Part shown: piece by piece, positions 47,773-51,559 of the stretch
Position numbering within the stretch: the first letter of the stretch is position 1
Layout: every line of letters begins with the position of its first letter
NCBI GenBank assembly: GCA_012517315.1
Contig: JAAYVE010000019.1
Coordinates: 124,001-188,000, forward strand
Length of the DNA: 64,000 bases
DNA from: Deltaproteobacteria bacterium
Lineage (GTDB): Bacteria > Desulfobacterota > Syntrophobacteria > Syntrophobacterales > Syntrophobacteraceae
Direction: 5' to 3'
Made by a program: the position numbers and the translations under genes
The notes under the pieces: model-generated
What the model was told of the DNA's origin: nothing
Seen by the model: the letters and a program-made list of their open reading frames with translations, nothing else
Database searches by the model: none

Positions 47773-49023
47773 TCAAGAGACGGAGTCGGCGGAGATCTCT
47801 TCTCCCACCAGGGGATTCTCGTCGTGGGATTTGAGTCCCCTCAGAACTTTTCCCATTTGGCGCAAAGCTTGCCTGATCCTGTGCTCATTTTCCACCAAGG
47901 CGAGCCGCAGATAGCCTTCCCCCTCCTCGCCGAATCCAATGCCGGGTGCCACGGCCACGTTGGCCTCCTCCATCAATTTCACGGCAAATGCCATGGAACC
48001 CATAGCATGGTAAGGCTCCGGAATCCTGGTCCACACGAACATCCCCGCCTTGGGTTCGTTCACGGGCCAACCGATGCGCCTGAGGCCGGCACAGAGCACG
48101 TCACGCCGTTTTTCGTAGACTCCAGCCTGATGGACGACGTCCGATTCACAGTCCCTTAGTGCCACGATCCCGGCGATCTGGATGGCTGAAAAGATGCCGT
48201 AGTCGTAGTAGCCTTTGATTTTAGCCAACCCCTCGATGATTTCGCGGTTGCCGACACAATAACCGATGCGCCATCCTGCCATGTTGTAGGATTTGGAAAA
48301 GGAACCGAACTCCACCCCGATTTCCCTGGCTCCGTCGACTTGGAGAAGGCTGGGAGCCCGGTAACCGTCAAACGTGATTTTCCCGTAAGCGAAGTCATGG
48401 ACCACCATGAAGCGGTATTTGCGCGCCAACTGAACCACTTCCGAAAAAAGATCCAGGCTTGCCAGGGCACCCGTAGGATTGTGGGGATAATTGAGGATCA
48501 GGACCTTCGGGCTGGGGCACAGGGATTCGCACATGGTCGCGATGCGGGCGAGAAAGACGTCTTCTTCGGCCAGCGGAATGCGGATGACGTTGCCGCCTGC
48601 AATGATGGCCGCATAGATATGAATGGGAAAAGCGGGAGCGGGAACGAGAACGGTGTCCCCGGGCCCAACAAGGGCGAGGCTCAAATGGGATATCCCCTCC
48701 TTGGAGCCAATGGTGCAAATGACCTCCTTCTCGCAGTCGAGATGCACCCCGTAATCCCGCTGATAGAACTTGGCGATCTCGTTTCGGAGGTTGCGCAGTC
48801 CTGCAGCAACGGGATACCGGTGGCTTTTTGGATCCTGGACCACTTCGCAGAGCTTCCGCGTCACCGCTTCCGGAGCAGGATCGATGGGGTTGCCCATTCC
48901 GAGATCGATAACATCATGCCCTTCCGCTCGCTTTTTCATCCTCATGTTGTTGATCATTCCGAAGAGGTACGGCGGAAGCTGTTCCATCCGCTGTGCGAAC
49001 CTGACAATCGATTGTTCTGCCAT
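47773..49023 (-). CDS. alaC: Aminotransferase, AlaC type (glutamate-pyruvate)
   Basis: A 416-residue class I/II PLP aminotransferase. Start AEQSIVRFAQRMEQLPPYLF and VIDLGMGNPIDPAPEAV fit the AlaC (YfdZ) branch; NYPHNPTG, VHDFAYGKITFDG and the PLP Lys in GSFSKSYNMAGWRIGY are typical. AlaC makes alanine from pyruvate and glutamate. ATG at 49023 has GGAGGAG upstream; the open frame to 49110 runs through a terminator hairpin and is rejected. The leader at 49067-49312 carries an alanine-rich leader peptide, strong support for alanine rather than LL-DAP or methionine as product. Confidence 0.9.
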   Translation of the reverse strand: MAEQSIVRFAQRMEQLPPYLFGMINNMRMKKRAEGHDVIDLGMGNPIDPAPEAVTRKLCEVVQDPKSHRYPVAAGLRNLRNEIAKFYQRDYGVHLDCEKEVICTIGSKEGISHLSLALVGPGDTVLVPAPAFPIHIYAAIIAGGNVIRIPLAEEDVFLARIATMCESLCPSPKVLILNYPHNPTGALASLDLFSEVVQLARKYRFMVVHDFAYGKITFDGYRAPSLLQVDGAREIGVEFGSFSKSYNMAGWRIGYCVGNREIIEGLAKIKGYYDYGIFSAIQIAGIVALRDCESDVVHQAGVYEKRRDVLCAGLRRIGWPVNEPKAGMFVWTRIPEPYHAMGSMAFAVKLMEEANVAVAPGIGFGEEGEGYLRLALVENEHRIRQALRQMGKVLRGLKSHDENPLVGEEISADSVS

Positions 49024-49066: not shown

Positions 49067-49096
49067 AAAAAAAACCCCGAGTCTTCTGACTCAGGG
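49067..49096 (-). terminator. Attenuator terminator of alaC
   Basis: Minus strand: CCCTGAGTC (49088-49096) pairs with GACTCGGGG (49075-49083), nine pairs with one U-G, AGAA loop, then eight T (49067-49074). It stands 44 bases before the alaC ATG. Confidence 0.88.
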
Positions 49097-49189
49097 CCAA
49101 AAACCGCCATGAGCCAGATGTTCAGCCCATGGCGCGCGGTGGCAATCGGTGCTTCTTATGTCTCCTTACCGCCGGCCAACGCCCAGGCT
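49067..49189 (-). promoter_or_regulatory. Transcription attenuator region of alaC
   Basis: Five ordered segments on the minus-strand RNA. Segment 0 (49180-49189) lies in leader codons 15-18; segment 1 at 49124-49134; segment 2 at 49105-49114; segment 3 at 49088-49096; segment 4 at 49075-49083. 1 pairs with 2 as a ten-pair stem (CGCCATGGGC with GCTCATGGCG); 3 with 4 is the terminator. The alternative set is 0 with 1 (ten pairs, two wobbles, one bulge) and 2 with 3 (eight of nine pairs). If ribosomes stall at early Ala codons, 0-1 and 2-3 can form and transcription continues; free translation favours 1-2 and termination. Confidence 0.75.
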
Positions 49190-49233
49190 GGACCATGAGC
49201 GGCCGCGGCTGCCATTGCGGGAGCATACATCAT
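49156..49233 (-). CDS. alaC leader peptide, alanine-rich
   Basis: A 25-codon frame ending TAA at 49156-49158. Ten residues are Ala, five of them consecutive (codons 8-12, MAAAAAH), with further Ala codons at 4, 6, 16, 18 and 20. The ATG at 49231-49233 has GAGGG six bases upstream; a second ATG follows. It lies within the alaC leader RNA, 44 bases after the expected start of transcription. Its likely job is to let the ribosome read alanyl-tRNA supply. Confidence 0.75.
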   Translation of the reverse strand: MMYAPAMAAAAAHGPAWALAGGKET

Positions 49234-49283
49234 TAATGACCCTCAAACCTAAAATTGATCAAATACGCACAATTACTCTTTGT

Positions 49284-49312
49284 TAATTAATCGATCGGAA
49301 TCCTCAAGTCAA
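49284..49312 (-). promoter_or_regulatory. alaC promoter
   Basis: TTGACT (49307-49312), 17-base spacer, TAATTA (49284-49289) on the minus strand; start expected near 49277, giving a leader of about 250 bases. Confidence 0.6.
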
Positions 49313-49366
49313 CGAACCTTTTGAAAAAAATCAAAGCAGATTGTGGCCGACCGTTCAGCAATCGAC

Positions 49367-49394
49367 TTGACGAAAAGGCTTCAGGTGCTATGCT
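49367..49394 (+). promoter_or_regulatory. Promoter of the DUF2914-cdaA operon
   Basis: TTGACG (49367-49372), 16-base spacer, TATGCT (49389-49394). The leader to the ATG at 49612 is about 210 bases, GC-rich, without a T-run terminator. Divergent from the alaC promoter. Confidence 0.5.
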
Positions 49395-49611
49395 GCTCAT
49401 ATTGCACCGGCGTGAATGTGGGACAACGGCTCCGAACACGTCGGTACAATGCCATGCGCATCGGCCCCGGGGAACGCCCGCACTGCCGCAGCGAACGCAG
49501 CAGCGAAGACGTTTCGGCAGTCCCGTGCATCCTGTCCTCCCCCATGGACAATTCCGGCAAAGCCAGAGAATCCAGCGCGATCTGCACGCGCAAATAACGG
49601 AGGGTCGTCCT

Positions 49612-50076
49612 ATGGGCAACCGGTTTGGAGTTTCTATTTTCCTCTTTCTTGTAACGCTCGTCTCCTGGGGACATTTCGATTCCCTCACCGCACAGGACGA
49701 CCAGCGGGAAATCAGCCCGCCCGCGGGCATCCAGTCCGGCTTGATATCTCAGAGACCATCCTTGATCCAGGCAGATACGTGTGAGAAGGTCGAGAACCTC
49801 AAGCCCGTTCGCCAGGGCCTCGTTTTTTCCGTCTCGGCCGGCCAGGTTTGTTGTTTCACGTCTTTCGACCCCGTTCCCCAGGCATCGGTTGTGTACCACC
49901 GTTGGTATCACAGGGACCAACTGAGCACGCAGATCCGGCTGAGGCTCTACCCTCCCAAGTGGAGCACGTACAGCGTGATTCAACTGCGGGAGACGGACAA
50001 AGGGCCCTGGCGCATCGAGATTATGGATGCAAACGGTTACACATACAAGGTTCTGCGTTTCAGCATAACCGACTGA
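49612..50076 (+). CDS. Exported DUF2914 protein
   Basis: A 154-residue protein with a signal peptide (residues 1-27, VSIFLFLVTLVSWGHFDS) and a C-terminal DUF2914 domain: CCFTSFDPVPQASVVYHRWY, then RDQLSTQIRLRLYPPKWSTY and KGPWRIEIMDANG. The domain occurs in periplasmic delta-proteobacterial proteins of unknown function. GGAGG precedes the ATG. The next gene (cdaA fusion) starts 31 bases later, so they share a transcript; a role in envelope or turgor control alongside c-di-AMP is only a guess. Confidence 0.82.
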   Translation: MGNRFGVSIFLFLVTLVSWGHFDSLTAQDDQREISPPAGIQSGLISQRPSLIQADTCEKVENLKPVRQGLVFSVSAGQVCCFTSFDPVPQASVVYHRWYHRDQLSTQIRLRLYPPKWSTYSVIQLRETDKGPWRIEIMDANGYTYKVLRFSITD

Positions 50077-50107
50077 TTTGAACCTTCTGCCTGAATGGCG
50101 ATTCACC

Positions 50108-51559
50108 ATGACTCGAATCTTCCAATTCCTTTCCACAGTGCGCTGGCAAGACCTGGTGGACATCCTCATCAACAGCTACATCCTATTTCGCGTGTATGTT
50201 CTTTTCCAGGGTACCAATGCATTCCGCGTCCTGGCGGGGGTCACATCCCTGTGGATCCTGCAGGAGGTGGCAGCCTCCATTGGCTTGATCCTCACCAGTT
50301 GGGCCGTTCGTGGCATCACGGCCGCAGCAGCCATCATCATCATCGTGGTCTTCCGGAACGAAATCCGTGCCGCCCTCCAATTGGGTAATCTCAAGAGTTT
50401 TCTCTGGGGCTTTCCGCACCGGGACATGCCCTCCCCAGTGGAAATGATCGCCGACGCAGCTTTCCGAATGGCGAAAAAGCGCATGGGTGCCCTTATGGTC
50501 ATCCCCGGAAAAGAGGACCTGACCGAGGTCATCCACGGTGGGATCGCATGGAACGGGAGCGTTTCCCCCGAGATGATCCTCAGCATCTTTTGGCCCAAGA
50601 ACCCTGTCCACGACGGGGCCATTATCATTAGAGGCGACAAGGTGGTGGAGGTGGGGGCACTGCTGCCCCTCTCCCAGAGAAGTGATCTGCCAAGCTTCTA
50701 CGGCACGCGACACCGTGCGGCTGCTGGCCTCGCCGAGCGCACAGACGCCTTGGTAATCACCGTGTCAGAAGAACGCGGTCGGGTAACGGTGGCCAAGAAC
50801 AGTTGGATGAAAGCCATCTCCACCCCGGAGGATTTGTCTGGAATCCTCAGGAGGCATCTCAATCTTCAGGAGGGGCGGACGATAAAGCAAGAGCAGAGGG
50901 AAAGGCTCAAGCTCGCCTTTGCAGCGGGCATTTCCCTTTTCATCATGACGGGAATCTGGTTTGGTTTCACACGAAGCCATGACACCATTATTGCTCTCAA
51001 CGTTCCCATCGAATACGTCAACAGGCCGGCAAATCTTGAAATACTCGATACCTCCGTCGACGAGGCAAGGCTGCAACTCTACGGGTCAAGTGCCCTCATC
51101 AAATCCCTCAAGCCAGGGCAGGTACAGGTGCGCTTGGATCTCGGCAAAGCCACCGAGGGCAGTAACATTTTCACCATATCCCAGGAGAACGTCATCCTCC
51201 CCCCCGGCGTTTTTCTGAACAAGGTTCAGCCGACCCGAATCGACGTGACACTGGACGTCCCCATCGTGGCGGAACTCCCTGTTCAGGTGGACTGGGTCGG
51301 CCGGCTGCCTGAAAATCTCTCGCTGGTGCAAGTCTCGGTTACTCCTGAGACGGTGAGGGTCACAGGGGGAAGTCAGACTATCAGGAGCGTGAACACGATA
51401 TACACGACTCCCCTGAGACTGGACAACATCACGCGATCCGGGTCCATCACCGCATCCCTGGCCATTGTCCCCCCTTCCCTCAAGCTGCTTACCGGGACCT
51501 CGGACAAGGTGACCGTGAGTTATGTGTTGAAGGAGCGCTCTACAGATGAGCGTGGATAG
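50108..51559 (+). CDS. cdaA: Diadenylate cyclase CdaA fused to YbbR domains
   Basis: A 483-residue membrane protein. Three N-terminal transmembrane helices (to about residue 90) and a DisA_N cyclase domain (about 100-250) with NPVHDGAIIIRGDKV (the DGA motif) and FYGTRHRAAAGL (the RHR motif), so it should make c-di-AMP from two ATP. A further membrane helix (about 265-283) leads into YbbR-type repeats (290-478; VPIEYVNRPANLEIL, GLPE-like RLPENLSLVQVSV). In Firmicutes these are two proteins, CdaA and its regulator CdaR. ATG at 50108 is used; TTG at 50078 is open. No glmM follows. Confidence 0.88.
   Translation: MTRIFQFLSTVRWQDLVDILINSYILFRVYVLFQGTNAFRVLAGVTSLWILQEVAASIGLILTSWAVRGITAAAAIIIIVVFRNEIRAALQLGNLKSFLWGFPHRDMPSPVEMIADAAFRMAKKRMGALMVIPGKEDLTEVIHGGIAWNGSVSPEMILSIFWPKNPVHDGAIIIRGDKVVEVGALLPLSQRSDLPSFYGTRHRAAAGLAERTDALVITVSEERGRVTVAKNSWMKAISTPEDLSGILRRHLNLQEGRTIKQEQRERLKLAFAAGISLFIMTGIWFGFTRSHDTIIALNVPIEYVNRPANLEILDTSVDEARLQLYGSSALIKSLKPGQVQVRLDLGKATEGSNIFTISQENVILPPGVFLNKVQPTRIDVTLDVPIVAELPVQVDWVGRLPENLSLVQVSVTPETVRVTGGSQTIRSVNTIYTTPLRLDNITRSGSITASLAIVPPSLKLLTGTSDKVTVSYVLKERSTDERG

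Follow-up and report, generated by a model that had tools for sequence, protein, structure and literature searches.

A predicted alanine-sensing, two-terminator transcription attenuator ahead of an AlaC-family aminotransferase gene in Desulfobacterota

The window analysed here is a stretch of 64,000 nucleotides from a genome of the family Syntrophobacteraceae. Its minus strand carries a gene for a class I/II aminotransferase, and the region immediately 5' of this gene holds a short Ala-rich open reading frame and two terminator hairpins. The upstream neighbours lie on the plus strand, a DUF2914 gene at 49321-50076 followed by a DAC/YbbR gene at 50078-51559. The second of these is a single open reading frame that encodes DAC (diadenylate cyclase) plus a YbbR domain, which are usually found on separate genes (cdaA and cdaR). 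The divergent orientation of these neighbours rules out the hairpins as terminators of an upstream minus-strand gene, and the leader terminators consequently have no other gene to serve. The features of the locus, with the evidence for each in brackets, are as follows.

49312-49067, minus strand: whole leader, made up of promoter, open reading frame and two tandem terminator hairpins, then the aminotransferase gene
49284-49312, minus strand: predicted sigma-70-type promoter TTGACT-N17-TAATTA (sequence motif)
49156-49233, minus strand: leader peptide open reading frame MMYAPAMAAAAAHGPAWALAGGKET, 25 codons, ATG at 49233
49198-49212, minus strand: control codons GCA GCC GCG GCC GCT, five consecutive Ala codons (codon conservation, n=22)
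49180-49190, minus strand: segment 0, CAGCCTGGGCG, partner segment 1 (0:1 covariation and fixed spacing to the Ala run)
49123-49134, minus strand: segment 1, CGCCATGGGCTG, partners segment 0 or 2 (covariation, pairing)
49105-49117, minus strand: segment 2, CTGGCTCATGGCG, partner segment 1 (first terminator) or 3 (antiterminator) (covariation, pairing)
49099-49103, minus strand: U tract GGUUUUUGG 3' of hairpin 1:2 (sequence, terminator scan)
49086-49096, minus strand: segment 3, CCCTGAGTCAG, partners segment 2 or 4 (covariation, pairing)
49067-49083, minus strand: segment 4, GACTCGGGG, plus eight U, an intrinsic terminator with segment 3 (terminator scan, covariation, pairing)
47773-49023, minus strand: AlaC-family class I/II aminotransferase, 416 aa (Pfam Aminotran_1_2; best NCBIfam PRK08175)

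Direct reading of the leader places the -35 element TTGACT at 49312-49307 and the -10 element TAATTA at 49289-49284, with a 17-nt spacer between them. GAGGG, the predicted ribosome-binding site, stands six bases 5' of the leader ATG. Ten of the 25 codons of MMYAPAMAAAAAHGPAWALAGGKET encode Ala, five of them consecutively at 49212-49198. In all these respects the original prediction is borne out: it had described a promoter ahead of the frame, an ATG with GAGGG six bases upstream and a 25-codon peptide (49233-49156) with ten Ala codons, five in a row. Two of its figures needed revision. The hairpin to which it had given ten pairs is present with 11 contiguous pairs (1:2; 49134-49105), followed by GGUUUUUGG, a U tract extended to 6–9 U in several relatives. 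The terminator with eight U that it had set 44 bases before the gene is likewise present, its U run ending 43 bases 5' of the aminotransferase ATG at 49023. This second hairpin (3:4) has 9–11 pairs at 49098-49073, with the eight U at 49074-49067. A terminator scan of the 4-kb region returned 9 sites against 3.7 ± 1.8 expected, and the two leader hairpins are those with the most pairs. The segments can also be paired otherwise, 0 with 1 through 11 pairs with one bulge and 2 with 3 through 8 pairs. The folding energy is −35.9 kcal/mol for the terminator fold and −23.8 kcal/mol for this alternative fold.

We gathered aminotransferase orthologs both from whole genomes within the family and from a second collection of genome contigs, and read their upstream regions. 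A matching layout precedes the orthologous gene in 21 relatives across Desulfobacterota. Our first alignment (A1) comprises 17 leaders, the window's included, which range over Syntrophobacteraceae, Desulfosarcina, Desulfatitalea, Desulfogranum and Syntrophales and have in common an Ala run of 4–6 codons, segment 0, hairpin 1:2 (CGCCATGGGCTG...CATGGCG) and hairpin 3:4. Cultured bacteria that carry the leader include Desulforhabdus and Desulfogranum marinum. A covariance model built on the 17 leaders and run against 395 genomes of the phylum gave nine full-length matches with E < 1e-7. Five full-length matches (L104-L108; E 4e-8 to 3e-17) had not been part of the training set; each lies immediately 5' of the orthologous gene and has an in-frame Ala run. 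Moreover, full-length leader and close ortholog (E < 1e-165) occur in one and the same set of 9 out of 395 genomes. Within the window's own family the leader is present in every genome with an ortholog at E < 1e-150. In the second collection roughly one close ortholog in two is without a leader, and none was found for more distant orthologs from other phyla. At one locus (L029, 2117-2500) the attenuator is intact, with ~230 extra bases between its second terminator and the aminotransferase gene.

The distribution of the leader was mapped onto a protein tree of 43 aminotransferases. It is present across the whole of a 15-member clade and in parts of a second one, and is absent from an 11-member Desulfobacteraceae clade; a leader-bearing protein from Syntrophales (L044) is placed outside the leader-bearing clades. 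Five changes are required to account for this pattern, the simplest reading of which would be a single early gain with several losses, the deep order being unsure given the long branches.

Conservation extends to the reading of the Ala run. Across 22 leaders, codon positions 1 and 2 of the run depart from Ala only in a single Gly and a single Val codon; position 3 is free (entropy 0.9 to 1.9 bits). In the relatives examined, the run lies in a frame that is open from a start codon. The peptide varies among relatives in its N-terminal part and in its length, which speaks against a conserved small protein. Segment 0 had been placed just downstream of the run, and the spacing between the two is identical in all 22 leaders, 7 nt counted from the end of the fifth Ala codon; in many leaders segment 0 carries Ala codons itself. 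In 20 of the 22 the leader stop codon follows segment 0 at a distance of 10–25 nt; in the other two it falls at the end of segment 0. A promoter is found 5' of the frame in every one of them, with a TTGAC[AT] -35 element 71–114 nt 5' of the Ala run in 22/22 leaders as against 8% in shuffled sequence. An Ala-rich frame and stems kept before related genes had been put forward as the test of the idea, and when it was run all 22 leaders retained the run, the frame, the spacing and both sets of folds.

Both folds are supported by compensatory changes. In the terminator fold (1:2 with 3:4), 90.4% of cells are paired, 9 of 20 pairs have two-sided changes and none of 500 shuffles reaches the covariation score. 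For the alternative fold (0:1 with 2:3) on A1, 85.1% of cells are paired and 12 of the 19 pairs are changed on both sides; again 0/500 shuffles reach the score, and slid versions are at most 42% paired. Related sequences can beat shuffles without structure, and the slid controls and two-sided counts are the firmer evidence. A stronger test of the alternative fold comes from a second alignment (A2), in which 22 leaders were fitted to the terminator fold only. Here 86.5% of cells are paired, two-sided changes affect 13 of 19 pairs and 42 cells, and 0/500 shuffles reach the score. A scan of every 6-bp helix essentially recovered 0:1, 1:2, 2:3 and 3:4. The same scan found no conserved helix using the Ala run and no protector around segment 0, and we rejected assignment to the trp/his subtype with a 5' protector helix, there being no conserved helix that sequesters the first arm.

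Read from these alignments, the leader is a two-terminator switch; its first hairpin is terminator-like in most relatives. Four helices (0:1, 1:2, 2:3 and 3:4) chain its five segments such that 0:1 with 2:3 excludes 1:2 with 3:4, in keeping with the two mutually exclusive fold sets that had been predicted. To this are added an open reading frame with start codon and ribosome-binding site, Ala control codons, terminators and a covarying antiterminator, the elements that mark an attenuator. The leader is very probably a ribosome-mediated transcription attenuator that senses Ala-tRNA(Ala) and controls an aminotransferase most likely making alanine.

Such an attenuator could work as follows. When alanine is plentiful, the leading ribosome would cross segment 0 and come to rest either there or in the gap before segment 1; hairpin 1:2 and then 3:4 would form, and transcription would end before the gene. 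When alanine is scarce, the ribosome would stall at the Ala run just short of segment 0 and leave that segment free. Pairing of 0 with 1 would then release segment 2 for segment 3, both terminators would be pre-empted and the gene transcribed. Given the greater stability of the terminator fold, the switch has to be a kinetic one; in attenuators generally it is the order of events that decides. The least certain step concerns the 20 leaders in which the stop codon lies past segment 0. A ribosome waiting there would only partly cover segment 0, and 0:1 may be blocked by timing or by the ribosome standing sterically between the arms. A counter-point is that a stall at the Ala codons which segment 0 carries in many leaders would have the opposite effect. 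Because there is no conserved 5' protector helix, blocking leader translation should raise expression, unlike in trp and his attenuators. Likewise, because the equivalent of his segment A is missing, leader translation should be needed for termination and not for readthrough. The two-terminator layout without a protector thus leads to a distinct and clear prediction for blocked leader translation.

The leader resembles E. coli trpL in its short open reading frame rich in codons for the product, its exclusive terminator and antiterminator and the coupling of stalling to readthrough. Unlike trpL, it has five segments where trpL has four, places its control codons 5' of the first arm and not within it, lacks a protector hairpin, carries a pair of terminators and has alanine as the amino acid. 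With hisL of Salmonella and E. coli it shares a chain of overlapping helices and a long uninterrupted codon run (7 His in hisL, 4–6 Ala here). The his leader comprises six segments, A–F; the equivalent of segment A is missing here, and the two stacked U-tailed hairpins are a further difference.

Leader-peptide attenuators for His, Leu, Thr, Trp, Ile/Val and Phe are named in a survey of attenuation (PMC3766115). A direct alanine attenuator would add one of the most used amino acids to the few covered. A partial literature search, with the 2010 comparative survey cited in PMC4833913 lying outside it, returned no alanine leader peptide on an alanine-making gene. The original prediction knew of no alanine version at all; this stands for alanine-making genes, for which we found no report, but not in general, as a link between a mycobacterial whiB7 uORF attenuator and alanine starvation has been reported (Poulton 2024, as cited by PMC13236596 and PMC10727445; the link is also cited in PMC13393426). 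As portrayed in the citing literature, the whiB7/wblC leaders of Actinobacteria are alike in their uORF, their intrinsic terminator with antiterminator and, in mycobacteria, the link to alanine starvation. By the same accounts they differ in controlling a transcription activator, responding to many ribosome stallers, acting only indirectly on alanine synthesis and belonging to another phylum, and a run of five Ala codons goes unmentioned in the citing literature covered. The polycysteine leaderless short ORFs of mycobacteria (Canestrari 2020, cited in PMC13236596), compared here through that citation, similarly have a homopolymeric run of the sensed amino acid before related genes; they differ in reading cysteine, in being leaderless and in phylum.

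Two strong U-tailed hairpins so close together might instead be a plain double terminator, or part of a ligand- or protein-binding leader (a riboswitch or T-box-like element), in which case the Ala-rich frame would not be a sensor; Ala codons do arise easily in GC-rich sequence. A plain terminator has no need of the 0:1 and 2:3 pairings, however, and these covary, while third codon positions vary yet the codons stay Ala. Nor does the alignment contain a conserved unpaired block resembling an aptamer. Rfam leader families (Trp, His, Leu, Thr and others) and the T-box gave no match at gathering score, and a permissive Rfam search returned nothing but sub-threshold matches to unrelated families, none above chance. 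We consider this explanation extremely improbable. The structured switch could also be real and its uORF respond to stalling in general, caused by antibiotics or by a shortage of any amino acid, which is the behaviour proposed for the whiB7 leader; short uORFs of that kind are known, going by what is reported of whiB7 (PMC10727445). Against this, the Ala codons are the sole strictly conserved part of the peptide, with flanking residues that vary, and in the sister attenuators described below the run changes with the downstream gene, becoming one of Trp, Phe/Tyr or Leu codons. General sensing is therefore very unlikely, and we favour an attenuator that reads the Ala codons as such.

Such an attenuator could still control an enzyme whose main product is not alanine and which also relieves alanine shortage. 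This possibility overlaps with the attenuator reading, which concerns the switch, and it turns on the identity of the enzyme. The top NCBIfam model for the protein is PRK08175, alanine transaminase, at 516 bits, below its curated equivalog cut-off of 647 bits; models of LL-diaminopimelate aminotransferase score nearly as high, and the nearest solved structure, 2x5d, is named merely as a probable aminotransferase. The name alaC, given to the gene originally, thus holds at the level of the family and not of the equivalog. An AlaC-family paralog in the same genome (L002, C24:34797-35954) scores higher as alanine transaminase (640 bits, just under the cut-off), and the 420 bases upstream of it contain no comparable leader. 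On the other side, alanine transaminase is the best-scoring family, a separate DapL lies above its cut-off at C48 of the same genome, and in classical attenuators the leader peptide reveals what the controlled gene makes. A different main product is on this evidence unlikely, and alanine is the most likely product of the leader-controlled aminotransferase. Since the protein scores below the cut-off and the paralog scores higher, the leader is the best clue to what the enzyme makes. It hints in this way at the function of an ambiguous aminotransferase.

Partial matches of the covariance model, restricted to the tandem hairpins, precede other amino-acid genes, namely those for TrpB-like proteins (trpB2), DAHP synthase, 2-isopropylmalate synthase (leuA) and aromatic aminotransferase. 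We considered the partial matches without an Ala run (L109-L125) as chance hits and rejected this, most being sister attenuators of other amino-acid genes; L121, L122 and L126 do look like chance or unrelated terminators. The sister leaders are like the alanine leader in their two adjacent GCCATGG-type terminator hairpins, segment 0, 2:3 pairing and a uORF ahead, and differ from it in their control codons, which are those of Trp, Phe/Tyr or Leu. In most of them the 0:1 and 2:3 pairings exceed shuffled controls. At L110, L112, L119, L124 and L127 an automatic test of 0:1 gave a non-significant result or misparsed the hairpins, and no weight is placed on these five.

Trp-rich peptides (WIWW, WWWW, NWAWWW) with tandem GCCATGG hairpins and TrpB-like genes downstream are found at L109, L111, L114, L118, L120 and L124. 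Phe/Tyr-rich peptides (such as YYYYW) with tandem hairpins stand before DAHP synthase at L113, L115, L116, L117 and L123. Tandem hairpins also precede 2-isopropylmalate synthase at L119, where the upstream frame is Leu-rich, and a PLP aminotransferase at L125 and L127, with an FYFYF leader.

Taken together, these leaders make it reasonably likely that Desulfobacterota have an interchangeable scaffold of their own, two stacked terminators pre-empted by one five-segment chain without a protector, carrying Ala, Trp, Phe/Tyr or Leu runs matched to the gene, with the alanine form the first to sit directly on an alanine-making gene. They point to a phylum-wide set of attenuators absent from Rfam. 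The window's own genome has one further candidate, L100 (C51:190838-190924, plus strand), where the Phe/Tyr-rich leader peptide MTRFYTCSCFYFRGGFYFEKPACGVAW and then tandem terminator hairpins stand ahead of a phenylacetate-CoA ligase-like gene. It is a probable Phe/Tyr attenuator, with a weak match to the covariance model (E-value 0.5).
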